Shown here one piece after another: positions 5,129 to 35,769 of a DNA stretch of 64,000 bases. The notes under the pieces were generated by a model, which saw nothing but the letters and a program-made list of their open reading frames with translations, ran no database searches and was not told where the DNA came from. The stretch's first letter is position 1. The number at the start of each line of letters is the position of its first letter. Source of the DNA: an uncultured Lachnospiraceae bacterium (lineage in GTDB: Bacteria; Bacillota; Clostridia; Lachnospirales; Lachnospiraceae); the NCBI GenBank assembly GCA_947625015.1, contig CANQMR010000004.1:1-64000 (forward strand). Direction: 5' to 3'. Both the position numbers and the translations under genes were made by a program.

Positions 5129-5165
5129 AATTCCCATGCAGGACAGTCTGTATGGGAATTTTTTT
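5129..5165 (+). terminator. Rho-independent terminator after dnaJ
   Basis: AATTCCCAT pairs with ATGGGAATT, and the pairing can extend inward through GCAG/CTGT to leave a four-base loop. A run of T residues follows directly. It closes the heat-shock operon and separates it from the glycosylation island. Confidence 0.9.
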
Positions 5166-5204: not shown

Positions 5205-5233
5205 TTGCAGAAGTTATAAAAAAGTAGTAAAAT
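5205..5233 (+). promoter_or_regulatory. Probable promoter of the glycosylation island
   Basis: TTGCAG and TAAAAT are separated by exactly 17 bases in a very AT-rich stretch between the dnaJ terminator and the first methyltransferase gene. It is the only good sigma-A-like site in this gap. Because the following genes are closely packed on one strand, it may drive much of the island. Confidence 0.6.
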
Positions 5234-5287
5234 ATTTTTTATAGTTTGTGGTTTAAAAGGTATATTTTTTATCAAGAGGAATTGATT

Positions 5288-6427
5288 ATGAAATTTATAG
5301 AAAAAATATCGGAAACAAAATGTTATTTAAAACAATATATAGACAATTATTATGGACAGCCATTAATAGTATTAGGGGCTGGAGTAGGAGCTGTTGGAAT
5401 AATATCATATTTGCTAGAAAAGGGAATAACTGAGTTTCATGTATGCGTTGATGATGTTTATTGGCAGGATGGTCAGAGAGTACAGGGATATGTTGTTGAA
5501 AGTATAAGTCAGGTGTTGTCAGAAGCTAGTAAACCATATGATATTATTGTAGCTTTTTCTACATTTGACAAGAGATCATTAGAACCATATAAAATGAAAT
5601 ATCCCGACTCAATAAACAATGTTGAATTTTATGATATTATTTCTCACTTTTGGGTGGAACCTCAAATATACAGTGTTGATAGGAAATTTTATGAATCAAA
5701 TGATAGTTTGCTTACAAAAATTTATGACAACTTAGCGGATGAACTGTCAAGGAAAGTTCTTGTTTCTTTTGTAGAACAGAGAATAAGTGGTGAGTTTAGT
5801 TATTCTGATGGGGTTCTTTCGCCAATAGATGAAAGATATTATGATACATCACTTTTTAATATGCATCATAACGCTGTGTTAATTGATTGTGGCGCTTATG
5901 ATGGTGAGGACACGAAAGAATTTTTTGCGCGTTTTGCTGGTGATACATTTTCGTTTGTTGTTGAGCCTGATAAAGAAAATGTAAAAAAAATAAGCGAAAA
6001 TCTTGCTGATTATAGTAATAGAACATTGATAATAAATAGTGCGGTGTGCGATAAAAAAGGGATGGTTTCTTTTTCGGATGGCGGTGGGGAAGGATCAGGC
6101 ATAAATGAGAATGGTTCTACTAAAGTAAGTGCTTTAACTATTGATGATTTGTATAAAGAATATCCTGATAAATTTGATAATAGAGATATCCTTATCAAAA
6201 TGGATATTGAGGGAACAGAGCTTAAAGCTCTTTACGGAGCAAAAAAAGTTATTGAAAAATTTACCCCCATATTATCAATATGTCTGTATCATAAACCGGA
6301 AGATATTATTGATATTCCTATTTATCTAATGAATTTGCAATTGGGATATAAATTTTATATGAGAAGATATGATAAAGGATTCAGAGAACTTATTTTATAT
6401 GCCATACCGAATAAAGATGGTGAATAA
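5288..6427 (+). CDS. FkbM family methyltransferase (copy 1)
   Basis: This is a probable SAM-dependent O-methyltransferase of 379 residues. The C-terminal half carries the FkbM-type fold: the SAM-binding strand and loop IDCGAYDGEDT near residue 199, the acidic VVEPDKEN segment, and IKMDIEGTELKAL plus SICLYHKPED at the end. The N-terminal half has a second nucleotide-binding-like stretch, VLGAGVGAVGIISYLLEKG, as in the other two copies of this island. I chose the ATG preceded by AAGAGGA; an upstream in-frame TTG has no ribosome site. The DNA is markedly more AT-rich than dnaJ before it, which suggests horizontal acquisition. The substrate is not visible; a surface sugar is inferred from the neighbours. 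Confidence 0.85.
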   Translation: MKFIEKISETKCYLKQYIDNYYGQPLIVLGAGVGAVGIISYLLEKGITEFHVCVDDVYWQDGQRVQGYVVESISQVLSEASKPYDIIVAFSTFDKRSLEPYKMKYPDSINNVEFYDIISHFWVEPQIYSVDRKFYESNDSLLTKIYDNLADELSRKVLVSFVEQRISGEFSYSDGVLSPIDERYYDTSLFNMHHNAVLIDCGAYDGEDTKEFFARFAGDTFSFVVEPDKENVKKISENLADYSNRTLIINSAVCDKKGMVSFSDGGGEGSGINENGSTKVSALTIDDLYKEYPDKFDNRDILIKMDIEGTELKALYGAKKVIEKFTPILSICLYHKPEDIIDIPIYLMNLQLGYKFYMRRYDKGFRELILYAIPNKDGE

Positions 6428-6484
6428 ATAACACATTGCATCATGCGCATTTGTGTTTTAGCAGGAAAGAAAGTCGGTGCGAAA

Positions 6485-7432
6485 ATGAAAGAATTAGAGA
6501 AGATTTCTTTTGTGATCCCCTGTTATCGTTCTGAAAAGACGGTTATTCTGGTGGTTAATGAAATTGAAGAGACCATGGGGCAAAGAAAGGAATTAGATTA
6601 TGAAATTATATTGGTGAATGACGGGTCTCCGGATAACGTCTGGGATGTGATTGCCAGACGGGCAGAAGAGGATAGTCATATTATTGGTATTAATCTGACC
6701 AGAAATTTTGGACAGCATGCGGCGCTCATGGCCGGATATAATTATTGTACCGGCGATTATGTGGTTTCTTTGGATGATGACGGGCAGACTCCGGCTAATG
6801 AGGTGTTTTCATTAATTGACGAGTTGGAAAAAGGATATGATGTAGTATATGCATCATATCCGGAAACGCATCAGAACTGGTTTCGACGTCTGGGATCGAT
6901 TTTTGCCAGTAAAACATCAGCATATGTTTTTGGCATGAAGGGAGACAATAGAAGGGGAAGCAGTTTTTTTGTGATGCGCAGATATATACTGGAAGAGATT
7001 ACCAGATATGGACATTCTTTCCCGTATATCGGAGGATTGCTATATAGGACCACAAGAAACATTGGTTTTGTGCAGGTTAATCATAGGGATCGTTTTTCAG
7101 GTACCTCCGGATACAGCCTTAAATCTTTGATTTCACTTTGGCTGAATGGATTTACTGCATTTTCAGTGCGGCCGTTAGAGCTAGGGGCCTATGCGGGTTT
7201 TGGCATGGCGATTGCGGGATTTATATATGCTATTTATACGATTATACGACGTTTGTTAAATCCGTCAATTATGCAGGGCTGGAGTTCGCTGATCTCCATT
7301 ACGCTGATTGTCGGAGGGCTTATTATGATTATGCTGGGGTTAATTGGGGAATATATTGGCCGTATATATATATGCATTAATAACTCTCCCCAGTATGTGG
7401 TAAAAGATATATGTAAAAGAGATAGAATGTAA
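6485..7432 (+). CDS. GT2 polyprenyl-phosphate sugar synthase (CsbB/GtrB/ArnC type)
   Basis: This glycosyltransferase probably transfers a sugar from a nucleotide donor to undecaprenyl phosphate on the inner face of the membrane. The GT-A domain starts with ISFVIPCYRSEKTV and has the metal-binding acidic cluster SLDDDGQTP, plus NLTRNFGQHAALMAG, which is highly typical of the CsbB/GtrB/DPM1-like group. Two C-terminal membrane helices (about 228-252 and 262-290) are also a hallmark of that group. The product is about 315 residues. The start is uncertain: this ATG fits the family, but the ribosome site (AGGAAAG) is rather distant, and an ATG 42 bases upstream is also in frame. It supplies the lipid-linked sugar for the downstream YfhO-type transferases. 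Confidence 0.88.
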   Translation: MKELEKISFVIPCYRSEKTVILVVNEIEETMGQRKELDYEIILVNDGSPDNVWDVIARRAEEDSHIIGINLTRNFGQHAALMAGYNYCTGDYVVSLDDDGQTPANEVFSLIDELEKGYDVVYASYPETHQNWFRRLGSIFASKTSAYVFGMKGDNRRGSSFFVMRRYILEEITRYGHSFPYIGGLLYRTTRNIGFVQVNHRDRFSGTSGYSLKSLISLWLNGFTAFSVRPLELGAYAGFGMAIAGFIYAIYTIIRRLLNPSIMQGWSSLISITLIVGGLIMIMLGLIGEYIGRIYICINNSPQYVVKDICKRDRM

Positions 7433-7446
7433 GAGGTGATATTCTT

Positions 7447-8592
7447 ATGAAAAAGCTATTAAGCGGCGTGATTTATCAAGAAAATGATTATTATGTTAAA
7501 ATTAATCATTTACTGCATAGTGATAAAAAAATTGGTATTTTTGGAGCCGGGATTTATGCAAAACAATTAGAATCGAGATTAAATAAATGGGGGATTTTAA
7601 TTGATTTTTGTGTAGTTGATGACGAGTATTTTGACACAGCAATTTCTAATGATAAAGAGCTGGTTAGATTAACCCAATTAAAATCTTATGGCGATGTTAT
7701 ATTAATTATTGGTTTTGAAACAATAGTTGAGCGGGAAGAATTTTTAAAGGGAAAAATTAATGAAATATTACTCTCTGCCCCCAATATCGAAATAATGGAT
7801 TTTGAAAATTGTTATGTTGATTGGGATTTTATTGATTATCCTTTTTTTCTTAATCATTATGAAGAATTTGAAACAACGTATAATCTATTAGCAGACGATT
7901 TTTCAAGAAGAGTTATGGTTGAATATTTAAATGCCTGCATTTCCGGAAAAGCAGGTGATTTTTGTAATTTAAAAACAGATCATATGCATGATTACGAGCA
8001 TGAACTGATTTTTAAGAACATAGTTTCGGGGGGGGTAATTGTAGAGTGCGGTGCATATAATGGCAAAACGGCAATCGAAACAGCAGAAACCTTAGAGGAT
8101 AAGAATATATCAGCAACAATTGTTGCATTAGAGCCGGATGAAAGTAATATCAAAATCTTGAATGATAATTGCAAAGATTATCCCAATATTGTTTTGGAAT
8201 CAAAAGGCGTGTATAGTAAGGACGGGACTGTATATTTCTGTCTGCTGGGAGGGCAGGCTGGAAAAATAACAGATATAAATGAAATTGAAGATATGTCGCA
8301 ATATGCCGCTGTTGATGTGGTCAGCATCGACACATTAGAGAAAAAATACGGCTCGATTACGGCTGTCTTAATGGATATAGAAGGAAGTGAGCTAGAGGCG
8401 CTTAAAGGAGGAATAAATGTTATCAAAAAATATAAACCTGCGTTAGCAATAAGGGCTTACCATAAAAAAACAGATTTATTTGAAATACCAATGTTTTTAG
8501 ATTCATTGTTGACTCAGAATAAATATAAATTATATCTTCGAAATAATGCAAACAGCAGGGGAATATTAGATTTAACATTATATGCTGTTTGA
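7447..8592 (+). CDS. FkbM family methyltransferase (copy 2)
   Basis: This 381-residue protein has the same two-part design as copy 1. The N-terminal nucleotide-binding-like stretch is KIGIFGAGIYAKQLESRL, followed by CVVDDEYF. The FkbM core has IVECGAYNGKTAIETA, ALEPDESNIKIL, and near the end AVLMDIEGSELEALKGG and LAIRAYHKKTD. GAGGTGAT lies just before the ATG. The gene is AT-rich like copy 1. It separates the GT2 gene from the EamA-like pair, so it is embedded in the lipid-linked sugar pathway rather than next to it. Substrate specificity cannot be read from the sequence. Confidence 0.84.
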   Translation: MKKLLSGVIYQENDYYVKINHLLHSDKKIGIFGAGIYAKQLESRLNKWGILIDFCVVDDEYFDTAISNDKELVRLTQLKSYGDVILIIGFETIVEREEFLKGKINEILLSAPNIEIMDFENCYVDWDFIDYPFFLNHYEEFETTYNLLADDFSRRVMVEYLNACISGKAGDFCNLKTDHMHDYEHELIFKNIVSGGVIVECGAYNGKTAIETAETLEDKNISATIVALEPDESNIKILNDNCKDYPNIVLESKGVYSKDGTVYFCLLGGQAGKITDINEIEDMSQYAAVDVVSIDTLEKKYGSITAVLMDIEGSELEALKGGINVIKKYKPALAIRAYHKKTDLFEIPMFLDSLLTQNKYKLYLRNNANSRGILDLTLYAV

Positions 8593-8628
8593 TATATATA
8601 GTATTGTTTGGGTAAAAGGATAATGGGA

Positions 8629-8997
8629 ATGAAAGAAAAAAGTTATAACTGGAAGGCATTTATTGTACTTCAGCTCGCTGTTTTTATTGTGTCTTTAGGC
8701 GGAATCTGTTCTAAACTGGCAGGACGGCAGATATTTTTGTCTAAAAAGTTTATAATATATTATGCCTTGCTGTTATGCGTACTGTTTGTATATGCGCTTA
8801 TATGGCAGCAGGTGCTTAAACATATTTCTCTGTCTGTCGCTTATGCCAGTAAAGGCGTGGGAATTGTATATGCGATTTTGTGGGGAATACTCATTTTTGG
8901 CGAAGAGATACGATGGAATATGATAGTAGGCGCAGTTTTGGTATTAATTGGTTCTTATTGTTATATCATTGATGAAATCAGGAGGATTTCCAAGTGA
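8629..8997 (+). CDS. Small EamA/SMR-type membrane protein, ArnF-like subunit
   Basis: The 122-residue product is almost entirely four hydrophobic helices. It has the drug/metabolite transporter signature near its end (YASKGVGIVYAILWGILIFGEE followed by GAVLVLIGSYCYI), and matches in size and design the half-transporters ArnE/ArnF that flip undecaprenyl-phosphate aminoarabinose. The start was set at the ATG eight bases after AAAAGGA; an ATG six bases earlier is too close. The last codons overlap the GTG start of the next gene, so the two products are made together, as expected for a heterodimer. The flippase role is inferred from neighbouring GT2 and YfhO genes. Confidence 0.78.
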   Translation: MKEKSYNWKAFIVLQLAVFIVSLGGICSKLAGRQIFLSKKFIIYYALLLCVLFVYALIWQQVLKHISLSVAYASKGVGIVYAILWGILIFGEEIRWNMIVGAVLVLIGSYCYIIDEIRRISK

Positions 8998-9329
8998 ACT
9001 ATATAATTATTTTTCTACTGTCTGTGTTTGTGTCCTCCGTTTCCCAGATCTTGCTGAAAAAAAGCGCAGGCAGACAATATAAGAGCGTGATTGCCGAATA
9101 TCTGAATCCGAGGGTTATTGCAGCATATGGGATGTTTTTTGTGTCCACCCTGTTAACCATGTATGCATATAAAGGCGTGCCGCTGTCTTTTGGCGCGCTT
9201 TTAGAGGCGGCAGGATATATATATATTCCGGTGTTAAGTTATTTTTTCCTTGGAGAAAAGATAACGTCGCTGAAAATAACCGGAGCTGTATTGATTATAC
9301 TTGGCATATGCTGTTATTCTTTACTATAG
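8994..9329 (+). CDS. Small EamA/SMR-type membrane protein, ArnE-like subunit
   Basis: This is the second four-helix half-transporter of the pair, 111 residues, starting at a GTG that overlaps the previous stop codon (GTGA) with GGAGGA in front. It has the SVSQILLKKSAG start and the GVPLSFGALLEAAGYIYIPVLSYFFLGEKIT region typical of the EamA-like fold, with the Glu-Lys pair that precedes the last helix. Together with the preceding gene it probably forms a dimer that flips the lipid-linked sugar to the outer face. A drug-efflux SMR function is possible from sequence alone but fits the context poorly. Confidence 0.8.
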   Translation: MNYIIIFLLSVFVSSVSQILLKKSAGRQYKSVIAEYLNPRVIAAYGMFFVSTLLTMYAYKGVPLSFGALLEAAGYIYIPVLSYFFLGEKITSLKITGAVLIILGICCYSLL

Positions 9330-9367
9330 GAATGACACCGATAATATGAAGAACAAAAAGGAGATAA

Positions 9368-10501
9368 ATGATGAGACAATTAGAAGATTATTCTAAAATT
9401 ATTTTTTTAGGCGGCGGCGTTATGGCTGAGCGGTTGTATCGACAGATTGATGGGATTGAACAAAAACTGGTTGGCGTTATGGATTTGTTAGAGCCTGAAA
9501 AACGGACCAAAACGGAGTTTAAGGGGTTGAAGATTCAGTCGCCGGAGTGTTACAGGGAGGTCCTGACCGGTGGAGATACTGCAGTTATCGTTGCGATAGG
9601 ACAATGGTTTGTGCCCGATATAGTTCATCAATATCTGTCTCAGTATGAATTCGGAGAAGAAAATCTTTTTGTTGTCAATCCGTATACAACGCTGCGTTTT
9701 TTCTGTATCGATGAAGAGTTGGAAAAGGAAAAGAGGATACCGCTCACAGACCCGGGGTATCAATTTGTCAGAGGACTGTTTCAGGATGAGCTTTCGCTGG
9801 AGATATACCGATTGCTGACGGAAAGTAAACCGTATGATACATTTGCCGACCCCTATGAGATTATGCCGTATACACAGATAAAAGATATGTATCACATGGA
9901 AGAGGATTACTGGCTAAGCTATGATTTTGGTAAAGGCTGTGGCGGAGAAGCTACAGTTATTGATTGCGGCGCGTATATTGGTGACAGCATATTGCCGGTT
10001 TGCAATAAAATACCGCAAAACCATATATGCTATTATGCCTTTGAGCCGGATCGGGAAAACGCAGACTGTATACGGAATAATGAGGAATTTAAAAATGCAG
10101 TCAGTCAACTGGAAGTATTTGAATATGGCGTAGGAGAGAAAAACCAGAGGCTTTCGTTTAAATATCCGGAAGATGGAAACAAAGAGGGCGGAAGGTTTGT
10201 GGAAATAAATGATGACGCCGCCGAAGCGTTAGAGGTGAAACGTTTAGATGACCTTAATCTCGATATCCACGGCACGCTATATATTAAAATGGATATAGAA
10301 GGTTCTGAACTGGGGGCGTTAAAGGGAGCAGAGGACATGTTGAAAAAGAACAGGCCTTATTTAGCGATTTGTCTTTATCACAGAAAAAATGATTTGTTAG
10401 AAATTCCCACATATATCGCAAAGCTTCTGCCGGATTATAAATTTTATCTGCGGGGGGGTTTTCATACCATATTGTGGGCAATTCCGGAAAAACAGGAGTA
10501 G
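9368..10501 (+). CDS. FkbM family methyltransferase (copy 3)
   Basis: The 377-residue protein repeats the two-part design of the other copies: IIFLGGGVMAERLYRQI at the N-terminus, and an FkbM core with VIDCGAYIGDSIL, YYAFEPDRENADC, IKMDIEGSELGALKGAE and LAICLYHRKNDLLEIPTYI. Base composition is closer to the chromosome than in copies 1 and 2, so the three genes may have had different histories or different time to ameliorate. Two adjacent ATGs are possible starts; the second (three bases later) has the better distance from AAGGAG. Its immediate downstream neighbours are the amino-sugar genes. Confidence 0.84.
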   Translation: MMRQLEDYSKIIFLGGGVMAERLYRQIDGIEQKLVGVMDLLEPEKRTKTEFKGLKIQSPECYREVLTGGDTAVIVAIGQWFVPDIVHQYLSQYEFGEENLFVVNPYTTLRFFCIDEELEKEKRIPLTDPGYQFVRGLFQDELSLEIYRLLTESKPYDTFADPYEIMPYTQIKDMYHMEEDYWLSYDFGKGCGGEATVIDCGAYIGDSILPVCNKIPQNHICYYAFEPDRENADCIRNNEEFKNAVSQLEVFEYGVGEKNQRLSFKYPEDGNKEGGRFVEINDDAAEALEVKRLDDLNLDIHGTLYIKMDIEGSELGALKGAEDMLKKNRPYLAICLYHRKNDLLEIPTYIAKLLPDYKFYLRGGFHTILWAIPEKQE

Positions 10502-10511
10502 TTGATTTATT

Positions 10512-11240
10512 ATGAAAATAATTAATGCAGTCTGGGAACAGCGAAATCTGGGCGTAGATGCAGCAGAGATTCAATTTGAGATGAATGATCGGATTGAGGA
10601 CATTGCAGATTCTTTTGAAAATGTAGCGGCAGCCTATCTGGTAGCCAAGATTCCCGGTGGACGTGGTGACTTATGTGAATTTGTGCAGGACCATGAATAT
10701 CGTTATATAGAAGATTTGATACAGGTGGAACATGATTTACATGAACCGGTGCGAACTCCGTTGCATCAGCGTCTGTATAATGCAACTTCTTATAGAAAAA
10801 TGACAGAGGAGGATATAGATATCCTGCAAAGGGAAGTCATGGCTGGAATGTTTGATTCCGACAGAATTTCCCAGGATTATGTCTTTGGAAAAGATGTGGC
10901 TGCAAAACGATATTGTAATTGGATTCATGATTTGATTGAACAAGGAGCAACGCCTTATGTAATCTTATATAAAGAGGAATCCACAGGTTTTGTTATCTTA
11001 AAAACTGCCGATGGGGTATATTATGAATCTGTTCTGGGCGGCGGATACCGGCGGTATCGTAACACCGGCCTTGGCCTTATTCAGAAAGAACAGGAAATTG
11101 TAAGAAGAGCCGGAGGAAAAAGGGTGACAACACATGTATCCTCCAATAATCCCGCCCAGTTAAGGGCATTGATGATAAACGGCTATGTCCCAATGGGGAT
11201 TGACCATATTTTTGTAAAGCATCAGGAGGAATACCGATGA
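10512..11240 (+). CDS. GNAT acetyltransferase, WecD/RffC-like (amino-sugar N-acetylation)
   Basis: The 242-residue product has a GNAT-type C-terminal half (YVILYKEESTGFVILK, then GLGLIQKEQEIVRRAGGKRVTTHVSSNN and a final GYVPMGIDHIFVKH). The middle segment DRISQDYVFG...AAKRYCNWI resembles WecD, which acetylates dTDP-4-amino-4,6-dideoxygalactose. The N-terminal half is less conserved. The stop overlaps the ATG of a WecE-like aminotransferase, so the two successive steps of one pathway are translationally coupled. The likely product is a dTDP-4-acetamido-4,6-dideoxyhexose; which epimer cannot be told. rmlA/rmlB are not in the window. Confidence 0.72.
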   Translation: MKIINAVWEQRNLGVDAAEIQFEMNDRIEDIADSFENVAAAYLVAKIPGGRGDLCEFVQDHEYRYIEDLIQVEHDLHEPVRTPLHQRLYNATSYRKMTEEDIDILQREVMAGMFDSDRISQDYVFGKDVAAKRYCNWIHDLIEQGATPYVILYKEESTGFVILKTADGVYYESVLGGGYRRYRNTGLGLIQKEQEIVRRAGGKRVTTHVSSNNPAQLRALMINGYVPMGIDHIFVKHQEEYR

Positions 11241-12367
11241 TCCCATTTAACAAACCGCCCTATGTGGGTAAAGAGGAACAATATATGAAAGAAGCCATCG
11301 GCAGCCGCAAAATCAGCGGGGATGGCAATTTTACAAGAAGGTGTCAGGATTGGTTGGAAAACGCTGCCGGAACTGATAAGGCATTATTAACCACTTCGGC
11401 AACTGCGGCGCTGGAAATGAGCGCCCTGCTATGTGATATTAAGCCGGGGGATGAGGTCATTATGCCGTCCTACACTTTTGTGTCGACAGCGAACGCCTTT
11501 GTCTTGCGGGGAGCCTCTATTGTCTTTGTGGATATCCGCCCGGATACCATGAATATAGATGAAAAGCTGATTGAGGAGGCGGTTACAAAGAAAACGAAGG
11601 CTATCGTGCCGGTGCATTATGCGGGAGTTTCCTGCGAAATGGATACCATTATGGACATTGCCGCAAGGCATGACCTTAAGGTAATAGAGGACGCGGCTCA
11701 GGGGTGTTATGCAACTTATAAAGGAAAAATGCTTGGCAGCATCGGGCATTTAGGCTGCTACAGCTTCCATGAGACTAAGAATTACAGTATGGGAGAAGGC
11801 GGCGCGCTTTTGATTAATCAAGAGGGATTGACTGATATGGCGGAGATTATCCGGGAAAAGGGAACCAACAGGAATCAGTTTTTCCGGGGCGAGGTGGACA
11901 AGTACAGTTGGGTAGAGCGAGGATCTTCCTATCTTCCCAGCGAGTTAAACGCCGCTTACCTATGGGCGCAGTTAGAGATGGCGGGCAAGATAAACGATAT
12001 GCGGCTTAATGCGTGGAAACGGTATAATAACGGTTTGCAGGAGCTGGAAACACAGGGAGATATTGAGCTTCCTTTTGTACCATCGGAGTGTGAGCATAAC
12101 GGGCATATGTTTTATCTGAAGGTAAAGGATTTGGAAACCCGTACCCGCCTGTTAGCCTATTTAAAAGAAAATGGTATATATGCAGTCTTTCATTATGTTC
12201 CGCTGCATTCTTCCGAAGGGGGAAGAAAGTATGGAAGATTTTTTGGAGAAGACAGATATACGACGAAAGAAAGCAACCGTCTGATCAGACTGCCCATGTA
12301 TTATGGCCTGACGGCCAGTGAGATAGATTATATTATAGATACAGTTCGAAGATTCTTTATTTCATAA
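11237..12367 (+). CDS. wecE: DegT/DnrJ/EryC1-type sugar aminotransferase, WecE/RffA-like
   Basis: This is a PLP-dependent transaminase acting on a dTDP-4-keto-6-deoxyhexose. The 376-residue length equals that of WecE. The PLP lysine is Lys181 in FHETKNYSMGEGGAL, the same position as in E. coli WecE. The IEDAAQGCYATYKGK segment carries the cofactor-binding Asp, and the start MIPFNKPPYVGKEE is very WecE-like. It overlaps the upstream acetyltransferase by four bases. The pair makes it likely that an acetamido-dideoxy sugar is the substrate handled by the GT2 and YfhO proteins here. Confidence 0.88.
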   Translation: MIPFNKPPYVGKEEQYMKEAIGSRKISGDGNFTRRCQDWLENAAGTDKALLTTSATAALEMSALLCDIKPGDEVIMPSYTFVSTANAFVLRGASIVFVDIRPDTMNIDEKLIEEAVTKKTKAIVPVHYAGVSCEMDTIMDIAARHDLKVIEDAAQGCYATYKGKMLGSIGHLGCYSFHETKNYSMGEGGALLINQEGLTDMAEIIREKGTNRNQFFRGEVDKYSWVERGSSYLPSELNAAYLWAQLEMAGKINDMRLNAWKRYNNGLQELETQGDIELPFVPSECEHNGHMFYLKVKDLETRTRLLAYLKENGIYAVFHYVPLHSSEGGRKYGRFFGEDRYTTKESNRLIRLPMYYGLTASEIDYIIDTVRRFFIS

Positions 12368-12439
12368 GGAATATGCTAATGAAAATCGAGGTGCTTTGCA
12401 AAATATCTATAGACTGGGATATTTGTAAGGAAAGGAAGA

Positions 12440-15052
12440 ATGGATATGAAAAAGGGTGTTACATGGATTAAGAAATATTGGGTATATGTCGCAGCGTTTT
12501 TTTTGCCTTGTGTGATTGTTCTGCTTCATCTGCTTACCAGAAATTCGTGGATATTCGGCGACGGAAGTATTCTCAGGGGAGATGCGGGTGTACAGTATGT
12601 ATATATTTTTGAAGAATTATGGAATAAATTACACAGTGGCGATTTGTCCTTTTATAGCTGGAATGCGATGAGCGGATATGACTTTTATCTGAATATGATA
12701 TATTATGCAATTTCGCCGGCAACGTTGATCCTGATGTTAATGCCTAAAAGTTTTTTATATGACGGTTTACAGTTTTTTATGGTGTTAAAATGGGCGATGT
12801 TATCTTTAAGCGCTGTGTATTTTTTTATGCATACAAAGTTTAATACATTAAAGAAGAACAGAAAATTGGTGGCGTTCACGTTAGGCGTATGTTATGCTTT
12901 GGGGAATTTTTTTATTGATATTTTAAATTATTTCAACTGGTTGGATTCTCTTATTTTATTTCCAATTTTGCTTTTGTTAATTGAAAAAATGATGGACCAG
13001 GGTAATTGGAAATTGTATTATGTATGCCTGACATTATGCATATTATGTAATTTTTATATTGCTTTTCCAATATGTATTTTTTTGTTTTTGTGGTATTTGA
13101 TAAATATATGGACTGTTGCAGATAAAGATAAGGTGACAAGAAGTAAATCCTTTTTTTGTGTGTCCCTTTTGGCAGGACTATCTTCAATGATTGTTGTGAT
13201 ACCGAGTGTTTTAAATGTCGGTAACAGGTATACGACCGGAAATGAAAATAAAATCCATGAATATATCAGAAGTTTGACTAAGACATTTCCGGAATTTTTG
13301 AAAAAGTTTTATATATTTAGTTATATTGATGAAAACAATATGTGTACGGCAACTTATTTGTCAATTGGGATTTTGCTTTTATGTATTTTTTTCTTTGCGA
13401 TTAGAATGGACAAACATATAAAATATACCAAAATTTTAATTTTTTTCCTGGTTTTATGTTCATTTTTTATAGGTGCGCTTAATTATGCCTGGCATGGATT
13501 TTCTATTCCACATGGTCCGGATAATCGATATGCCTTTGGTTTTCTTTTACTATTAGCTGTGATGGCTTTGGACGTAATCGGAAGATTAAAGCAGCTTACC
13601 TTAAAACATTGTTTGATTGCGATGGTCATTAGTTTGGCTTTATTCTTTGGTACATTTTTTACCATTGAAAAATTTGAAGCGGTTTATGTATATCTTGGCA
13701 CATTATTTTTAGTTGTACTGTATAATATATTATTTATATTAAATCGCAGAAAAAGTATTAGCAATAAAATATTTATACGGATATTTTGTTGTCTGTGTAT
13801 TTTAGAAATAAGCGCAAATGCATATTATCAGTGGAGGGCGTATGAAGCCTTACAGCCGGAAAAGATCGGAAATGTGGCAGAGGCAGAAAGACTGGTTGAG
13901 GACTTGAATGTAAAAGCGGGACAAAGGGTTGCGTTTCAGGACGCAGGATATGGAATGGGAATGAAGACGGGTCTTCCAAGTGTTTCAGGATATGTTTCTT
14001 TCTTTAATGGGAATCTGGGGGATTTATGCTATAACCTTGGTATGAATCGGGTTTCTGATGCCGCGGTTGATTATTCAGGTGGGACTCCGGTGATGAACGT
14101 GCTGTTTAATATTGGTTATGGTGCGGGAAAATATGAGACAGAATTTAGCGACTGTGAAATTTTGAAGGCGCAGGATAATATGGTACTATGCAAGATGAAG
14201 CGTTTGGCTGGTTTGGGATATATGCTGCCGTATGCGATAATGAACTGGGAAGGAAGCGATTTGTCCAATTTTGTTAACCAAAATGAATTTGTGGAATATG
14301 CGACAGATGGAAAGGTTAAAGAGGTGTTTAAGGTTTTTTCGCCGAAAATTACGCATTGTGCCAGCGATAGTTATGATTTATCACCTGTTACAGAAGAGCT
14401 GGAAGAAGCAGGCGTATCCTATCATTATCTGTCTTTAAACAATGGCGAAAACAGCATGATTGAATTTGAGGCAGAAGAAGATATGGATTTATACTTTACC
14501 ATAAAGGGAAGCACAGAGTATTATTCTTCTGTTTATGTGAATAATCAGCTATTCTATCAGGATACGATAAAATCAGGCCGGAATATTATTCATTTAAAAG
14601 ATATTAAAGCCGGAGATAAGATATCTATTAATAATTATGTAATGGACCAGACGGGAAATGAAGTTGCTTTTTATATGCAGTTTGCCAGATTTGACCAAGC
14701 GCAATTTGATACTTTTTATAATCTGATATCGAAAAATACATATCATATTACTGACTTGCAGGCAGATCGCATAAAAGGGAACATTTCTGTAGATAAAGAT
14801 GGAATTATGATGACGTCGATTCAGGATATGAAAGGGTTTGATGTGTATATCAATGGAAATAAGGCAGATTATAATATAATTGGAAATGCATTAATCGGAT
14901 TACCTCTATCAACCGGTGAATATGAAATAGAGTTTAAATATTCGACGCATGGATTTGTTATAGGATGTATCATGTCCATATTGGGAATTGTTATTTTCAT
15001 GTTAGTTTGTTATATGGAGAAAAGAAGGAGGATAACAGATGAAAAGGATTAA
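12440..15052 (+). CDS. YfhO family membrane glycosyltransferase (single module)
   Basis: The 870-residue protein has about a dozen hydrophobic helices in its first 450 residues and a large extracellular part, closed by a last helix and a basic tail. This is the design of YfhO, the GT-C enzyme that transfers a sugar from undecaprenyl phosphate to a surface polymer in Bacillus and Listeria three-component glycosylation systems. The first outer loop has IFGDGSILRGDAGVQYV, including the conserved acidic residues; RLAGLGYML and MMTSIQDMKGFDVYINGNKADY are shared with the next gene. AAGGAAAGGA precedes the ATG; a second ATG six bases later is also usable. The acceptor is unknown. Confidence 0.85.
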   Translation: MDMKKGVTWIKKYWVYVAAFFLPCVIVLLHLLTRNSWIFGDGSILRGDAGVQYVYIFEELWNKLHSGDLSFYSWNAMSGYDFYLNMIYYAISPATLILMLMPKSFLYDGLQFFMVLKWAMLSLSAVYFFMHTKFNTLKKNRKLVAFTLGVCYALGNFFIDILNYFNWLDSLILFPILLLLIEKMMDQGNWKLYYVCLTLCILCNFYIAFPICIFLFLWYLINIWTVADKDKVTRSKSFFCVSLLAGLSSMIVVIPSVLNVGNRYTTGNENKIHEYIRSLTKTFPEFLKKFYIFSYIDENNMCTATYLSIGILLLCIFFFAIRMDKHIKYTKILIFFLVLCSFFIGALNYAWHGFSIPHGPDNRYAFGFLLLLAVMALDVIGRLKQLTLKHCLIAMVISLALFFGTFFTIEKFEAVYVYLGTLFLVVLYNILFILNRRKSISNKIFIRIFCCLCILEISANAYYQWRAYEALQPEKIGNVAEAERLVEDLNVKAGQRVAFQDAGYGMGMKTGLPSVSGYVSFFNGNLGDLCYNLGMNRVSDAAVDYSGGTPVMNVLFNIGYGAGKYETEFSDCEILKAQDNMVLCKMKRLAGLGYMLPYAIMNWEGSDLSNFVNQNEFVEYATDGKVKEVFKVFSPKITHCASDSYDLSPVTEELEEAGVSYHYLSLNNGENSMIEFEAEEDMDLYFTIKGSTEYYSSVYVNNQLFYQDTIKSGRNIIHLKDIKAGDKISINNYVMDQTGNEVAFYMQFARFDQAQFDTFYNLISKNTYHITDLQADRIKGNISVDKDGIMMTSIQDMKGFDVYINGNKADYNIIGNALIGLPLSTGEYEIEFKYSTHGFVIGCIMSILGIVIFMLVCYMEKRRRITDEKD

Positions 15053-18000
15053 AGATATATTAAAAAAATATTGGTTTTATATATTGGCCTTTGTTATTCC
15101 CTGGCTGGTGGTGGTGATTCATTCATGGCTTGCCAATACCTGGGTAACAGGAAATGGAACTTTACTGCGGGGGGATATGTCTGCCCAACTGGTGCCTTTT
15201 TATTATGAATTATGGGACAAAATTCATTCCGGAGAATCTTTTGCTTACACCTGGCATATGTTCGGCGGGATAGACTTCCATTCTATCTTAGGCTATTTAA
15301 TTTCGCCTTTTACGCTGCTGGTATTGATTTTTCCTAAAGATTGGATTGAGAATGTTGTTCAGTTTATTATGGTGACCAAGTTGGCGCTGGTTTCCCTGAG
15401 TATGGTATATTATATGTATAATACCAAATATAATACGCTGAAAATCCATAAAGGATTAGTGTCCCTGTTTTTAGGCCTGGCTTTTGCGTTGGGAAACGGA
15501 ATGTTGAATTTTATGGGGTACATTCAGTTTAATGATGTAATGTATTGTGTCCCGATTTTACTGTTGTTAGTAGAGCGCATGGTGGATAATAAAAAATGGA
15601 AACTGTACTATCTGATTCTGACGTTTTGTATGTTCAGTAATTTATATTTAACTTACAGTGTTTGTATTTTCCTTTTGCTCTGGTTTGGATTTCAGATGAT
15701 GGGGAAGGTAGAACAAAGAGGAAGAAAATTCATGTTATTTGCAGGAAGTTCAGTTCTGTCGGCATTGACTTCGGCCGGCGGTATCTGCAGCGCCCTGGTT
15801 TTAAATTACAGTCGTTATTCTACGGAAAAAGATAGTATAATATCCGGATATATATACCGGATACTGGTTAATTTTTCAGATTTTGTTAAACAGTTTTTTG
15901 TTTTATCTCCTATTGCAGAAGCGGATAATTTAGCCCCGAACATATATGTTTCTGTGTTGGGAGTTGTATTAGCGGCTTTTATACTCTGTATTAAGATGAA
16001 TAAAAAAGAAAAAGTATATTTAATCATACTTTTTGGGTTGATGGCAGCAAGCATTTCTTTTGGTTACCTCAGTTATGTCTGGCACTTGTTTGCGGTGCCC
16101 AATGGCGTGTATCATCGTTTTTCCAATTTATTTGTTTTTGTAATCCTTTTTATGATGCTGCTTACTTTTACGCATATGCAGGATCTGAAAAAAAGGCATG
16201 TGGCAGGCATAGGAGCGGTTTTACTGGTTTTGTTTTTTCTTGCATTTTTCAAGATTGATCAATACGAGACGCCTGCTGTGTATATAGCGACAATTACGTT
16301 GTTGATTATATATATTATTCTTTTGTTTTTTTATTGTAAAAAAGATATAAGTTATAGCCGGATTCTTGTTGTTCTGGCTGTGTTTGGCATTGCGGAGCTT
16401 TGCATAAATGCACAGGTGGCTTTAAAATCCTATGATTGCGTAAGTTTTCTGAAAGATAATAAACAAAAGCAGATGCTCAGACTGTTAGAAGATACGACGC
16501 TTGAACCGGGAGAGCGGGTTGCATGGTCCCAATTTACCAATAATATGGGTTTGATAGCGGGAATCAATACAGATGGAGGATTTGCATCCGGTATTAACGG
16601 ACAGAACAGGGAATTTCATCAGAGATTAGGCATGGCGTGCATGGGAAGGGTTGGATATTTAACCAGTGGAGGTTCCCCTTTAATTAATCTGCTTTTCAAT
16701 AATCGTTATGGAATCAGCGATTCGGATACAGAATACAGCGACGCCCGGATCGTGTCGCAGACAGAGGATTATAAATTATATCGGATGAACCGGTTGGCGG
16801 GCCTTGGCTATATGGTAAATTCGGATGTTTTACAATGGGATATTGATAAGGGAACATATTTTGATGTACAAAATCAATTTGTGGAGTATGCGACAGGAGA
16901 AGCTCCGATTTTCCATGCAGAAAAAGTGGAAATGACATATGAAAACGGCGGGAATGATACAGTATCTGTATGGGACAAGGAATTGGAGCAATATGGAACT
17001 TATGCAGTTAAATATCAATATAAATATGACGACAGCAGGGATATGTTGAAAGCGGAATTTACAGTCGATGAGGAAATGGATTTATATTTGTCGTCTGAGA
17101 TCAATGGGAACGGAGAGGCAGTAAGTGTATTTCTGGATGGTGAAATGCTGTTTACAAACGAGAGAGCCAGTTCGCAGTGGTCCTATCATATTGGAAATGT
17201 CAGGAAAGGACAAAAAGTGTCGGTATATGTTCTTCCGGAATATGAACTGAACGGTCAGGGAGGATTCGATTGGGTACTTCAACTGGCAAGTTTTGATGAA
17301 GAGGCCTATGCGAAGGCATATGAAAAATTGAGCCAAAATACTTACCATATTGAGTCGGAAACATCGGATTATCTATGCGGCACCATAGAAGCAAAAGAGG
17401 CGGGCGTGATGATGACCTCCATTCAGGCGGCGGACGGCTTCTCTGTGATAGTGGACGGGAAAAAAAGCGATTATGTAACAATAGCCGGTGCGATGATCGG
17501 TGTTTCTTTGCCAAAAGGCAAACATAATATTGAATTTGTATATGATACGCCGGAGATAAAATACGGGAAATTAATTTCCGTATTCAGTATTGCCTTATTT
17601 TTGCTGTTGTGTTTTTATGACTATGGATTAGCGCTCAGTAAATCCGAGACGGGAATGGAAAAATTATGGAAGATAAAGAAAGTTATCAATCAATATGGAA
17701 TTTATATTCTGGCTTTCCTCATACCTTGGATGATTTTGCTTTTACGATGCTTTTATGACGGTATCTGGCTGTTTGGGGACGGCAGTCTGCTCAGGGGGGA
17801 TATGTCTGCCCAACTGGTGCCTTTTTATTATGAATTATGGAATAAGGTGCACGCCGGGGAGGCGCTTTCCTTTACCTGGAATGTGGGAGGCGGAACGGAT
17901 TTCCATACGCTTAGCGGATACCTGATTTCTCCCTTCACCCTGCTGGTGCTGGTATTGCCTAAAACCTGGATTCCCAATGTGGTACAGTTTATTATGGGAA

Positions 18001-20285
18001 TGAAATGGGCGCTGGTAACAGTCAGCATGGTATATTTTTTCAAAAATACCCGTTATAATACGTTGCACAGGCATAAGGGAATGGTTTCTTTGTTTCTTGG
18101 TATTGCCTATGGAATGGGAACCGGCATGCTTAATTATATGGGTTATATTCAATTTGAGGATGTCATGATCTGTTTCCCTGTTTTACTGCTGCTGGTTGAA
18201 AAGATAGCGATGGAAAAACGTTGGAAGTTGTATTATCTTTTGCTTACATTTTCCATGTTGAGTAACATATATATATCTTTTAGCGTATGTATCTTTTTAC
18301 TCATGTGGTTTGTTTTTCAGCTTTTGTCGGAGAAAAAGGAAAGGGCAGGAAAATTTTTTCTGTTTGCGGGCGTATCGCTCCTTTCGGCCCTGACCGTATT
18401 TAATAGTCTGATCGGCGGTTTGATATTGGCGCAGGGGAGGCTGGATGTAGCGCAGGAAAGCACGCTTCTCAGTTATTTACAGGGGATGCTGATTAAACCA
18501 TATGATTTTATAAAGCAGATGTTTGCGCTGACACCGATTGCGTCTGCGGCAAGCTATGACCCCAACATTTATTTTTCCGTATTGGCCGCAGTACTGGCAG
18601 GGGCGTTTTTATTTATTAAAATGGATAAAAAGAAAAAGCTCTATTTGATTGGCGTAACGTTAGTTTTGACCGTCAGTTTTTTCTATGGCCCCTTAAGCCT
18701 TGTATGGCATTGTTTTGCGGTGCCTAATGCAGTGTATCATCGTTTCTCCTATTTGTTTGTATTTGTAATGCTCTTTTTGGTGCTCTTGGTGCTGATTCAT
18801 CTGAAAGAACTGCGGCTGAGACAGATCTGTGCGGTGGGAACGGCGGATGGCGTGTTGTTTATTATAACTTTTTTGCTGCTGGATAGATTTGAGTCATATA
18901 TTGTATATTTGGTTACGATCTTATTGATTGTGCTTACCATGATTTTGCTGTATCTGTTTCGCAAAAAACACATTACTTATTCACAGATACTGCTTGCCGT
19001 CTCGGTAATCGGTATATTAGAAATGTGTTCCAGCGCTTTTGTAGCGTTAAATGATTATAATGTAGAGGGATATTACAATAAACAGGGTAATCAGCAGGCT
19101 GTGACTTTGGCGGAAAAGGCGGTTATGGAAGACGGCGAGAGAATGGAATACATGGATTGTTCACTGAATATGGGCCTGGTAACTTCAAAAGCATCGGATT
19201 CCGCTTTTTTGTCCAGTATTAACGGATATAAGATGCGGATGCACAAACAATTGGGAATGCCTTATAACGGAGAAGTGGAATATTCTTATTATGGAGCGTC
19301 TCCTTTGGTGAATTTGTTATCGAACATTCGGTATTATGTAGCTACGGGTGCCTGTCAGGTGAGCGACGCAGACGAGGTGGAGACAACAAACGGATATACT
19401 TTATACAGAACGAGGCGCCTTGCCGGATTAGGCTATATGGTAGATGAACAGATAACAGATTGGAATACAGACTTTTCAGTCGGATTTGACGTTCAAAATG
19501 ATTTTGTGAAAAAGGCGGTTGGCGGAACTGAAATTTTCGATTTGATTGAACAGCCTCAGTTGAGTTGTTACACAGCAGGCGGAGAAAAGGTGGAAGAAGA
19601 TCCGCGCTGGGCGGAAAAGGGCGTATACCGATATGATTATAAGATGAAGTATGGAAATGAACAGGATACGATGATTGCGGAATATAAGGTGACAGAGGAT
19701 ATTGACGATTTATATATGGCAGAGATTGCTAACTGGGGCGCCTATATTAATATATTTGTGGATGGAGAACTCATTCGCTCAGATTTGACGATAAATGTAC
19801 AGCAGATGTTTCATATTGGAAAGATCAATAAGGGACAAACACTGACAATCTGTGCAGTTCCGGTTCCTTCAATTTTCACTGTTCCAGAAGGTATTCTTGT
19901 GCTTGAATTTGCAAAGTTTAACGAGGACGCCTATGCGGCCGCCTATGAAAAGTTAAGCAGCAATGTGTATCAAATTGAAACACAGGAGGCAGACTATGTA
20001 AAAGGCTCTATTGAGGCCGAACAGTCAGGAATTATGATGACGTCAATTCAGGCTTTAGATGGTTTTACGGTTTATGTAGACGGAAAGGAAACCCAATGTG
20101 TTAAGGTGGCTGACGCTTTGCTTGGTGTTCCGCTGGAAAAGGGGAAGCATACGGTTGAGTTTAAGTACCGGACGCCGTCGCCTCTGTATGGAAAGGTAAT
20201 CTCTGTAGGCGCATTTGTCCTGTATGTGATATTCTGCCTGATTGATGATAGGAAGAAGAGGAAGAAAAATGGAAGTATACTTTGA
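15039..20285 (+). CDS. Tandem YfhO-YfhO fusion membrane glycosyltransferase
   Basis: This single reading frame of 1748 residues contains two complete YfhO modules, about 1-870 and 873-1748, twice the family's usual length. Each module has its own N-terminal membrane block, first-loop motif (GNGTLLRGDMSAQLV in module 1, GDGSLLRGDMSAQLV in module 2), a RLAGLGYMV motif and a C-terminal MMTSIQA...VDGK segment with a closing helix. Module 2 begins with Met873, as if two adjacent genes were joined by loss of a stop. A 47-base stretch is identical between modules. The gene overlaps the previous YfhO gene by 14 bases and the next gene by 17. Module 1 replaces the first Asp of the loop motif with Asn, so the modules may not be equivalent. 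Confidence 0.88.
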   Translation: MKRIKDILKKYWFYILAFVIPWLVVVIHSWLANTWVTGNGTLLRGDMSAQLVPFYYELWDKIHSGESFAYTWHMFGGIDFHSILGYLISPFTLLVLIFPKDWIENVVQFIMVTKLALVSLSMVYYMYNTKYNTLKIHKGLVSLFLGLAFALGNGMLNFMGYIQFNDVMYCVPILLLLVERMVDNKKWKLYYLILTFCMFSNLYLTYSVCIFLLLWFGFQMMGKVEQRGRKFMLFAGSSVLSALTSAGGICSALVLNYSRYSTEKDSIISGYIYRILVNFSDFVKQFFVLSPIAEADNLAPNIYVSVLGVVLAAFILCIKMNKKEKVYLIILFGLMAASISFGYLSYVWHLFAVPNGVYHRFSNLFVFVILFMMLLTFTHMQDLKKRHVAGIGAVLLVLFFLAFFKIDQYETPAVYIATITLLIIYIILLFFYCKKDISYSRILVVLAVFGIAELCINAQVALKSYDCVSFLKDNKQKQMLRLLEDTTLEPGERVAWSQFTNNMGLIAGINTDGGFASGINGQNREFHQRLGMACMGRVGYLTSGGSPLINLLFNNRYGISDSDTEYSDARIVSQTEDYKLYRMNRLAGLGYMVNSDVLQWDIDKGTYFDVQNQFVEYATGEAPIFHAEKVEMTYENGGNDTVSVWDKELEQYGTYAVKYQYKYDDSRDMLKAEFTVDEEMDLYLSSEINGNGEAVSVFLDGEMLFTNERASSQWSYHIGNVRKGQKVSVYVLPEYELNGQGGFDWVLQLASFDEEAYAKAYEKLSQNTYHIESETSDYLCGTIEAKEAGVMMTSIQAADGFSVIVDGKKSDYVTIAGAMIGVSLPKGKHNIEFVYDTPEIKYGKLISVFSIALFLLLCFYDYGLALSKSETGMEKLWKIKKVINQYGIYILAFLIPWMILLLRCFYDGIWLFGDGSLLRGDMSAQLVPFYYELWNKVHAGEALSFTWNVGGGTDFHTLSGYLISPFTLLVLVLPKTWIPNVVQFIMGMKWALVTVSMVYFFKNTRYNTLHRHKGMVSLFLGIAYGMGTGMLNYMGYIQFEDVMICFPVLLLLVEKIAMEKRWKLYYLLLTFSMLSNIYISFSVCIFLLMWFVFQLLSEKKERAGKFFLFAGVSLLSALTVFNSLIGGLILAQGRLDVAQESTLLSYLQGMLIKPYDFIKQMFALTPIASAASYDPNIYFSVLAAVLAGAFLFIKMDKKKKLYLIGVTLVLTVSFFYGPLSLVWHCFAVPNAVYHRFSYLFVFVMLFLVLLVLIHLKELRLRQICAVGTADGVLFIITFLLLDRFESYIVYLVTILLIVLTMILLYLFRKKHITYSQILLAVSVIGILEMCSSAFVALNDYNVEGYYNKQGNQQAVTLAEKAVMEDGERMEYMDCSLNMGLVTSKASDSAFLSSINGYKMRMHKQLGMPYNGEVEYSYYGASPLVNLLSNIRYYVATGACQVSDADEVETTNGYTLYRTRRLAGLGYMVDEQITDWNTDFSVGFDVQNDFVKKAVGGTEIFDLIEQPQLSCYTAGGEKVEEDPRWAEKGVYRYDYKMKYGNEQDTMIAEYKVTEDIDDLYMAEIANWGAYINIFVDGELIRSDLTINVQQMFHIGKINKGQTLTICAVPVPSIFTVPEGILVLEFAKFNEDAYAAAYEKLSSNVYQIETQEADYVKGSIEAEQSGIMMTSIQALDGFTVYVDGKETQCVKVADALLGVPLEKGKHTVEFKYRTPSPLYGKVISVGAFVLYVIFCLIDDRKKRKKNGSIL
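15169..15215 (+). repeat. 47-bp identical repeat, YfhO module 1 copy
   Basis: This tract is base-for-base identical to 17794-17840 in the second module of the same gene, starting with six G and ending at TTATGG. Surrounding bases differ by many substitutions, including wobble positions. It encodes the conserved first extracytoplasmic loop (RGDMSAQLVPFYYELW). Local identity at silent positions suggests gene conversion or a recent exchange. Confidence 0.95.
17794..17840 (+). repeat. 47-bp identical repeat, YfhO module 2 copy
   Basis: This is the second copy of the identical tract at 15169-15215, 2625 bases apart and in the same reading frame. Recombination between the copies would remove exactly one module and leave a single-length YfhO gene. 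Confidence 0.95.
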
Positions 20286-30741: not shown

Positions 30742-30775
30742 ATGATTATCTAAAATTATTTGTGAGGTCATGCGT

Positions 30776-32491: not shown

Positions 32492-32508
32492 TATGATGAG
32501 ATAAGCCG

Positions 32509-32539
32509 AATGCCGCCTGTGCCTGCATAAGGCGGCATT
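32509..32539 (+). other. Stem-loop between pilB and pilT
   Basis: A ten-base perfect stem AATGCCGCCT/AGGCGGCATT with an 11-base loop lies 18 bases after the pilB stop. No T-run follows, so complete termination is unlikely; a processing or attenuation site is more plausible. Confidence 0.65.
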
Positions 32540-32603
32540 TGACGAAATATATGCGGAGCCGTCAGGCGACGAGATATAATGTAACAGGGAAAGGGGAAAA
32601 GAC

Positions 32604-33656: not shown

Positions 33657-33703
33657 AAAATTGTACAAAATTCATAGAAAATTGATTTTATGTTAATTTA
33701 TTA

Positions 33704-35058: not shown

Positions 35059-35074
35059 TTCTTACGAGCCTTGC

Positions 35075-35760: not shown

Positions 35761-35769
35761 TTAATTATT

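Follow-up and report, generated by a model that had tools for sequence, protein, structure and literature searches.

The window, the whole 64,000-nucleotide stretch of DNA analysed here, carries an AT-rich gene island (38.3% GC, versus 48.2% and 47.6% in its flanks) which, as regards its donor side and flippase, we interpret as an Arn-like extracytoplasmic glycosylation system, with a probability of roughly 0.75. In the proposed pathway, RmlB, encoded elsewhere in the genome, would supply dTDP-4-keto-6-deoxyglucose, which a WecE-type enzyme would aminate to dTDP-Fuc4N; an acyltransferase of the GNAT type would then N-acylate the amino sugar, an ArnC-like GT2 would load it onto undecaprenyl phosphate (UndP), an antiparallel SMR-type heterodimer (EamA1/EamA2) would flip the UndP-sugar, and three YfhO modules would transfer the sugar outside the cell, with FkbM enzymes O-methylating it at some step. 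The likeliest acceptor would be the type IV pilus whose genes lie 10 kb downstream, either its pilins or surface proteins associated with it, and we give the complete pathway ending on pili or pilus proteins slightly less than an even chance. This interpretation draws on features read directly from sequence, namely the gene families, the residues and charge bias of the two EamA proteins, the recurrence of the module and an enriched YfhO-pilT linkage.

Proposed donor-side enzymes and YfhO proteins of the island

The genes dnaJ and nifS flank the island, and a terminator-like hairpin (5129..5160, plus strand; a 14-pair stem with a T run behind it, by consensus match only) lies after dnaJ, upstream of the island. 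All island genes named in an earlier note on this DNA were recovered in place on the plus strand, using the ORF list, Pfam and NCBIfam, and their families support the lipid-linked sugar transfer logic proposed there. Coding sequences overlap by 4 bases between EamA1 and EamA2, by 4 bases between the WecD-like and WecE-like genes, and by 14 bases between the two YfhO genes. Comparison with plasmid DNA returned only partial matches, covering at most 12% of the query among the matches listed.

The aminotransferase (11237..12367, plus strand; Pfam DegT 8e-87) passes the curated WecE model TIGR02379 with 643 bits (cut-off 434.85), and its closest solved relatives are WecE-type enzymes at 546 and 544 bits, the next family scoring 169 bits. 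It is predicted to convert dTDP-4-keto-6-deoxyglucose to dTDP-Fuc4N, in agreement with the earlier proposal of on-site amination, the product being a 4-amino-4,6-dideoxy sugar. The island had also been called self-contained, a description that we reject because dTDP-glucose 4,6-dehydratase (RmlB, over cut-off) is encoded outside it, on contig C2. The overlapping WecD-like gene (10512..11240, plus strand), a predicted N-acyltransferase (GNAT), matches only the WecD models (5e-5 and 8e-5), where its 22-23 bits fall far short of the curated cut-offs of 195 and 219; searches of Pfam (to 0.01) and of the PDB (to E 1) found no match.

The GT2 gene (6443..7432, plus strand; Pfam GT2 8e-28) encodes a putative undecaprenyl-phosphate sugar synthase, which scores 179 bits with the NCBIfam ArnC model (equivalog cut-off 529) and 145 bits with PgfS, both below the equivalog cut-offs; among solved structures it comes closest to ArnC (146-158 bits) and then to sll0501 (138 bits). 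By these profiles the protein is an ArnC relative and not an ArnC orthologue. In place of the CsbB/GtrB-type assignment made earlier, the GT2 is ArnC/PgfS-like by both profile and structure-sequence searches, and therefore the Arn pathway combined with a YfhO transferase offers a better template. Three FkbM-type methyltransferases, missed in the earlier note, are interspersed on the plus strand at 5288..6427 (PF05050 9e-15), 7447..8592 (PF05050 1e-12) and 9368..10501 (PF05050 6e-13; solved FkbM 2py6, 4e-24), all three over the TIGR01444 cut-off, and they may O-methylate the sugar.

Two putative YfhO transferases complete the island on the plus strand: a single-module protein (12440..15052; PF09586, 403 bits, 4e-120) and a 1748-aa protein of two fused modules (15039..20285; PF09586, 744 bits, 5e-223, in two stretches) that are 47% identical to each other. 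Asp48 is present in the single protein and in both modules of the fusion. The only NCBIfam models matched by these modules are PgfM1 and PgfM2, at 135-310 bits, with the cut-offs of 1400 and 1500 not reached. No PDB relative was found by profile up to E 10, the profile searches reveal no GT-C fold, and hhalign found no similarity between YfhO and ArnT. An assembly artefact is an unlikely origin for the two-module gene, since double-length YfhO frames occur in other genomes (1864 aa in G045; 1542 aa, in two stretches, in G374; 1694 aa in G332).

The EamA pair and the recurrence of its module

Between the second and third methyltransferase genes lie two short plus-strand genes, EamA1 (8608..8997) and EamA2 (8994..9329), which encode the predicted flippase subunits. 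EamA1 scores 28.2 bits (3e-6) with PF00892, exactly the cut-off, and 24.8 bits with PF00893 (Multi_Drug_Res; cut-off 23.7), and EamA2 scores 31.6 bits (2e-7) with PF00892 (cut-off 28.2). Their charge biases, an indirect sign of topology, are opposite, +4 (N-in) for EamA1 and -6 for EamA2, and 20 of the 22 pairs have opposite K/R bias, with means of +3.2 and -5.0; according to passages of PMC9574504, opposite bias is seen in more than 95% of SMR pairs encoded by adjacent genes. At the positions equivalent to those of EmrE, as taken from the EamA1/EamA2 profile comparison, Glu14 is replaced by Val in EamA1 and by Ser in EamA2, and Trp63 by Lys in EamA1. Across the aligned proteins, an acidic residue is absent from the Glu14 position in 23/23 EamA2 and 21/22 EamA1 proteins, and all 22 EamA1 proteins carry Lys or Arg at the Trp63 position. 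Among lipid SMRs, the same passages report, Asn often replaces the central Glu. The two proteins may accordingly be pictured as subunits of an antiparallel SMR-type heterodimer that would flip the UndP-sugar; flipping of UndP-monosugars is a poorly established step of such systems, and a passage of a 2024 paper describes direct evidence for it as lacking (PMC11127046).

Raw profile scores leave lipid and other SMR subtypes unseparated: the EamA1 profile gives ArnE 32.8 versus 29.7 bits for MdtJ, the EamA2 profile MdtJ 29.7 versus 26.1 bits for ArnE, and the NCBIfam ArnE model gives 22 bits for EamA1 (cut-off 92) and nothing for EamA2. Identity as a drug-efflux SMR was rejected on residues and gene context, though raw scores alone do not exclude it, so that the earlier expectation that the pair would not group with such proteins is borne out by the former and not by the latter. 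A conventional SMR exporter of metabolites or drugs, sitting in the sugar operon by chance, would fit the Multi_Drug_Res score of EamA1, its weak NCBIfam matches to EbrB and MdtI, slightly ahead of ArnE, and the precedence of MdtJ with the EamA2 profile; we nevertheless regard it as very improbable, given that the exporters' acidic residue is missing in 44/45 aligned proteins, that the pair is associated with WecE and GT2, and that two WecE loci carry GtrA in the absence of EamA2. A local GtrA profile also gave a weak match at the WecE locus of genome G062 (L075), one absent from the Pfam search results. GtcA/GtrA (PF04138) was not found in the island, in keeping with the earlier proposal that an ArnE/F-like pair fills the flippase position, which the residues and opposite bias also favour; the genome's one PF04138 match is on contig C2, and its product could still act in trans. 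The pair is no constant part of this island type, as genomes G002 and G005 have such an island and no EamA2 match anywhere.

The four-gene core (WecE, GT2, EamA1, EamA2) is a widespread module, since all four genes occur in 45 of the 80 named loci, and we reject the notion of a unique island. At these EamA loci, four of which (L109, L111, L112 and L171) are contigs of G023, G065, G004 and G006 in the EamA2 survey of relatives, EamA1 was found at 76, WecE at 55 and GT2 at 53; here and below, gene labels in other genomes derive from BLAST against the window proteins, except where a Pfam or NCBIfam match is stated. Relatives of EamA2 were confirmed by tblastn at 420 places, and EamA2 lies within 10 kb of WecE at 14 of 26 WecE loci in relatives, versus 0.13 expected, counting the best 23 of 31 EamA2 places. 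In other genera the module also sits within large polysaccharide-type loci (L042, L068, L076; by reading), as would suit an exopolysaccharide or capsule locus in which the sugar belongs to the repeat unit and the YfhO proteins are not transferases. That reading is the least probable of those considered, as the window's island lies between dnaJ and nifS and its ORFs, Pfam and NCBIfam matches include no initiating transferase, polymerase family or additional glycosyltransferase. With its residue signature and the 420 relatives of one subunit, the EamA pair makes the flippase step testable outside Enterobacteria.

Pilus linkage and the candidate acceptor

Downstream, beyond some 10 kb of housekeeping genes, the window holds a type IV pilus operon (30770..51645, plus strand) with pilB, pilT, pilC, pilin, pilD, pilM, pilN-like and pseudopilin genes and a gene for a 1830-aa protein. 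PilT (32613-33632) and the prepilin domain are over cut-off, the PilB model gives 617 bits, just below cut-off, and the rest were identified by reading translations. Under a crude uniform placement model applied to best-scoring matches only, 6 of 63 other genera have YfhO and pilT no more than 10 kb apart, versus 1.06 expected (p about 0.0006, among the matches listed), second fragments of split genes and matches below cut-off being left out. In the 44 genera new to the test, absent from the first one, the linkage was found in 4 versus 0.75 expected (p about 0.006, among the matches listed), G027 and G029 being counted in both placement tests. Within the genus, where the same model was used with start-to-start distances, 13 of the 24 genomes that have both genes keep the linkage among the matches listed, and these represent one inherited arrangement; in the class sample, inspected by eye, YfhO was seen about 9-12 kb from pilT only in genus g141 (G172, G198, G271), besides the window's own.

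In two distant genomes the whole cassette lies amid pilus genes. G374 has WecE, GNAT, an FkbH-type gene, GT2, EamA1 and EamA2 between pilT and pilB, with a two-module YfhO there on the other strand; locus L181, from a MAG named Ruminococcus sp. SIG544, has pilB, pilT, two pilins, YfhO, EamA1, EamA2, FkbM, ATP-grasp, Gfo/Idh and GT2, followed on the opposite strand by WecE and YfhO. In G029, four YfhO genes surround a pilin gene and adjoin the pilus operon. The presence of the gene set amid pilus genes in some relatives therefore suggests that pili may be the target. At 75 of the 80 EamA loci, Blautia loci included, no pilus label was found within 8 kb, and the 5 pilus-adjacent loci represent about three lineages, because L118, L123 and L124 have one common gene order.

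The same donor side and flippase could instead serve a YfhO decoration of teichoic acid or another wall polysaccharide, with pilus proximity reflecting shared chromosomal order, an explanation that we consider a serious one at clearly less than even odds. According to passages of PMC8035078, LTA or WTA is modified by the YfhO enzymes of Bacillus, Staphylococcus and Listeria; PF04464 matches of teichoic type number four in the genome, and three of these have rml-type genes within about 10 kb, so that a polymer acceptor may exist; and within the genus, YfhO adjoining nifS and a pilus operon some 12-20 kb off amount to a shared order. Against this, the YfhO-pilT linkage recurs across genera whose gene orders differ, and cassettes sit amid pilus genes, while the match of the YfhO modules to Pgf protein-modification models weighs little, no other NCBIfam models having been matched. 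The earlier note named an unknown surface polymer as acceptor; the PF04464 genes are compatible with this, although the neighbourhoods point at least equally to type IV pili. Another surface protein, such as an adhesin modified in a Pgf-like manner with no special tie to pili, appears unlikely: the PgfS/PgfM-type scores of GT2 and YfhO and the large surface-type proteins beside some YfhO genes (L081, L083, L195; by reading) agree with it, but no large surface-type protein was found in the window's island.

Pili or pilus proteins are favoured over a wall polymer as acceptor because of the enriched YfhO-pilT linkage and of the cassette placed amid pilus genes in two distant genomes. Extending this to monoderm gut bacteria at large, we tentatively suggest, as a doubtful generalisation, that they may place on their type IV pili, outside the cell, a 4-amino-4,6-dideoxyhexose that is N-acylated and probably methylated, for which WecE, an ArnC-like GT2 and an antiparallel EamA1/EamA2 flippase (with Lys/Arg for the exporters' Glu and Trp in its binding site) would feed YfhO, tailoring genes swapped between strains making the coat variable. 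Were pili to be the acceptor, the type IV pili of monoderms would bear a dedicated, variable glycan coat; a term search of a review of monoderm pili (PMC6916266) returned no word beginning with "glyco".

Comparison with known systems

The Arn (L-Ara4N) pathway of E. coli (arnBCADTEF) shares with the island a DegT aminotransferase, a GT2 loading a 4-amino sugar onto UndP, a paired SMR-type flippase and a separate membrane transferase. The island differs in having a dTDP-hexose line (WecE) instead of a UDP-pentose, in the absence of ArnA and ArnD, and in YfhO taking the place of ArnT; to our knowledge, no lipid A is expected in the family of the host. The CsbB-GtcA-YfhO systems of Bacillus, Listeria and Staphylococcus likewise combine a GT2, YfhO and a small-protein flippase, whereas the island has the EamA pair for GtcA, an ArnC/PgfS-like GT2, three YfhO modules and methyltransferases, and would make its amino sugar on site from dTDP-4-keto-6-deoxyglucose. 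The Pgf machinery of Streptococcus mutans (pgfS-pgfM1-pgfE-pgfM2) resembles it in a PgfS-type GT2 and in YfhO-type enzymes matching PgfM1/PgfM2; the island, however, scores far below the equivalog cut-offs, has an aminotransferase and an acyltransferase for the epimerase, and encodes a flippase pair. TfpW is the transferase of a diderm type IV pilus glycosylation system. In S. mutans, the Pgf machinery modifies surface proteins (passages of PMC5856776), and the pilus glycosylation described in part of PMC11127046, with another sugar and loading enzyme and a diderm host, shares with our reading of the island a lipid-monophosphate sugar as the proposed donor.

The Arn-like island and its sugar supply

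The studied genome comprises 2.82 Mb, and the window lies on its contig C4, where ten island genes, all on the + strand with inter-gene gaps of at most 72 bases, are bounded by dnaJ upstream (3921-5093) and a nifS-like gene downstream (20242-21423). Their order is FkbM1, GT2, FkbM2, EamA1, EamA2, FkbM3, a WecD-like GNAT, a WecE-type DegT protein, YfhO and a two-module YfhO; the genes named in the earlier note were all correct, and the three FkbM methyltransferases had been missed. Because a terminator-like hairpin follows dnaJ and the GC content drops to 38.3% in the island versus ~48% outside, the island is probably transcribed from a start of its own and probably differs in history from its flanks.

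The DegT protein exceeded the cut-off of the curated WecE model (643 bits versus 435), and its best solved relatives were WecE-type enzymes (546 and 544 bits; next family, 169). In Escherichia coli, WecE converts dTDP-4-keto-6-deoxyglucose into dTDP-Fuc4N. The enzyme making this substrate, RmlB, is encoded on contig C2, where the match exceeds its cut-off and rml-type neighbours were recognized by reading; therefore, the island is not self-contained, contrary to the earlier note. The GNAT matched WecD weakly in profile searches, and formyltransferase, MaoC-like and other GNAT genes were read near the corresponding place in relatives, while Pfam identified ATP-grasp and Gfo/Idh genes at a Ruminococcus sp. 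SIG544 locus (L181) and FkbH in genome G374. Since these tailoring genes differ, the acyl group of the amino sugar would vary between relatives. The GT2 scored 179 bits against ArnC and 145 against PgfS, both below cut-off, its best solved relatives being ArnC structures followed by sll0501, known as GtrB.

EamA1 and EamA2 as a putative flippase pair

The two small proteins are EamA-like, and profile scores do not discriminate between SMR subtypes, for which the residues are more telling. We aligned 23 EamA2 and 22 EamA1 sequences, including the window's pair; E. coli K-12 ArnE, ArnF, EmrE, MdtI and MdtJ served as references. At the site of the exporters' central Glu, all 23 EamA2 have Ser, Ala or Asn, and all EamA1 but one (21 of 22) have a non-acidic residue, the exception having Glu; lipid SMRs often carry Asn there (PMC9574504). 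In EamA1, the position of EmrE Trp63 is Lys or Arg in 22/22 and that of Tyr60 is Tyr in 20/22; a basic residue at the exporters' aromatic position would suit a phosphate head group. With helix ends placed manually from hydropathy, the K/R bias was opposite in 20 of 22 pairs, EamA1 being zero in the other two (means +3.2 for EamA1 and -5.0 for EamA2). A review describes opposite bias as the mark of heterodimer-forming SMR gene pairs, and the lipid SMRs of the genome set surveyed there were all singletons (PMC9574504). In the third helix, EamA1 (8608-8997) has Lys or Arg at residue 82 in 22/22 sequences, and EamA2 (8994-9329) has Glu at residue 71 in 19/23; these residues are a possible inter-subunit pair or phosphate-binding site.

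Distribution of the module and diversity of YfhO

Among 115 relatives, EamA2 matches occurred in 26 genomes. A WecE-type gene scored over cut-off in 26 genomes, and in 14 of these EamA2 lay within 10 kb of it (0.13 expected); within this distance, GtrA occurred without EamA2 at two WecE loci (G066, G029), both occurred at two (G009, G038), and neither was found at ten, of which the G004 locus is cut by a contig end. In named genomes, where the closest EamA2 found (97% identical) belongs to a Lachnospiraceae MAG, 420 EamA2 places were confirmed; the best 80 of them were accompanied by EamA1 (76), WecE (55), ArnC-like GT2 (53), YfhO (10) and GtrA (6). Among the carriers are Blautia, Eubacterium callanderi, Propionispira raffinosivorans, Parvibacter caecicola and an Olsenella. 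The four genes EamA1, EamA2, WecE and GT2 were together in 45 of these 80 places, and this core had YfhO within 8 kb in 5/80. Given these counts in relatives and named genomes, the EamA pair looks like a widespread alternative flippase for a Fuc4N-type UndP-sugar, and YfhO like one of a number of membrane proteins found alongside it.

The nifS-adjacent slot was inspected in 14 genus members picked for YfhO or EamA matches there, which gives no frequency. YfhO was common to these slots, with the sugar cassette present or absent: YfhO stood without cassette genes in G009, G010, G018, G020 (two), G025 and G015, and the EamA pair with WecE was found in G006, G012, G013, G016, G023 and the window. 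Loci L066 and L067 (in G002 and G005) show the window's island type with GT2, GNAT, WecE and two YfhO, the EamA pair being absent; as no EamA2 match was found across either whole genome and GtrA lies on other contigs, GtrA may serve these islands in trans.

A loop Asp48 is present in each of the window's three YfhO modules, the position being acidic in 25/25 aligned modules. Double-length YfhO occurs in several genera (window 15039-20285, G045:C6, G332:C6, G374:C48), those of G332 and G374 adjoining type IV pilus genes. Adjacent GtrA and YfhO matches sharing a single open reading frame, 977-1098 aa long (G039:C60, G043:C350, G065:C6, G052:C60, G027:C36) are apparent natural flippase-transferase fusions, and this shared frame hints that both proteins act as a complex.

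Candidate acceptors and known systems

A type IV pilus operon spans 30.8-51.6 kb of the window, ended by an 1830-aa protein (46153-51645) with relatives at the matching place in G065 and G332. Of the 26 relatives outside the genus that carry both YfhO and pilT, 3 had the two within 10 kb of each other (0.36 expected, p ~0.005); with one genome per genus, this held in 6/63 genera (1.06 expected, p ~0.0006), and in 4 of the 44 genera new to the test (0.75 expected, p ~0.006), or 2 within 5 kb (p 0.07). A class-level sample added one further genus only.

In G374, WecE, GNAT, FkbH, GT2, EamA1, EamA2, further genes and, on the other strand, a two-module YfhO lie between pilT and pilB-pilC, ~24 kb apart; L181 (a MAG) reads pilB, pilT, two pilins, YfhO, EamA1, EamA2, FkbM, ATP-grasp, Gfo/Idh, GT2, WecE, YfhO; and in G065 (L111), the pilus operon is followed by EamA1, EamA2, ATP-grasp-like, Gfo/Idh-like, GT2 and FkbM genes. 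A pilin gene amid four YfhO genes adjoins a type IV pilus operon in G029 (C1, 7879-19770), GT2 and YfhO lie a few kb upstream of pilB in G027 and G095, and the orders pilB-pilT-YfhO and GT2-GtrA-YfhO-pilT occur in G351 and G335, the latter pilT having no further pilus gene around it across the inspected 20 kb. Elsewhere in G029 (C3, 8408-10680), an EamA pair lies between a TadZ-like gene (weak, under cut-off) and a prepilin peptidase (over cut-off), and the best-scoring YfhO of the studied genome (C9, 2644-10330) has Tad-type pilus genes nearby: a T2SSE ATPase and a prepilin peptidase, each exceeding its cut-off, and an intervening histidine kinase. We tentatively favor pili or pilus proteins as the acceptor, with a probability of about 0.45. 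Against this reading, a pilus label was absent within 8 kb at 75 of the best 80 of 420 EamA loci, housekeeping genes separate island and pilus operon in the window, and the genome has four teichoic-type PF04464 matches. That the sugar decorates a polymer is a substantial, if lesser, possibility.

In the literature searched, no work joined Lachnospiraceae, YfhO and glycosyltransferase; three papers contain YfhO and pilin, each mentioning pilin once, and the only one combining EamA with undecaprenyl phosphate, flippase, Gram-positive and glycosyltransferase is, judging by its title, a structure-prediction study. Lipid-linked GT2/flippase/GT-C systems acting on polymers are already established, with flippases of the Wzx and MATE types proposed to substitute for GtrA (PMC8035078, PMC11127046). 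Flippases of the SMR type are known from Arn and have been suggested for mycobacterial arabinose (PMC9574504, PMC7389260, PMC11127046), surface proteins are modified by the Pgf operon (PMC5856776), and a lipid-linked route has been proposed for pilus glycosylation in Pseudomonas aeruginosa (PMC11127046).
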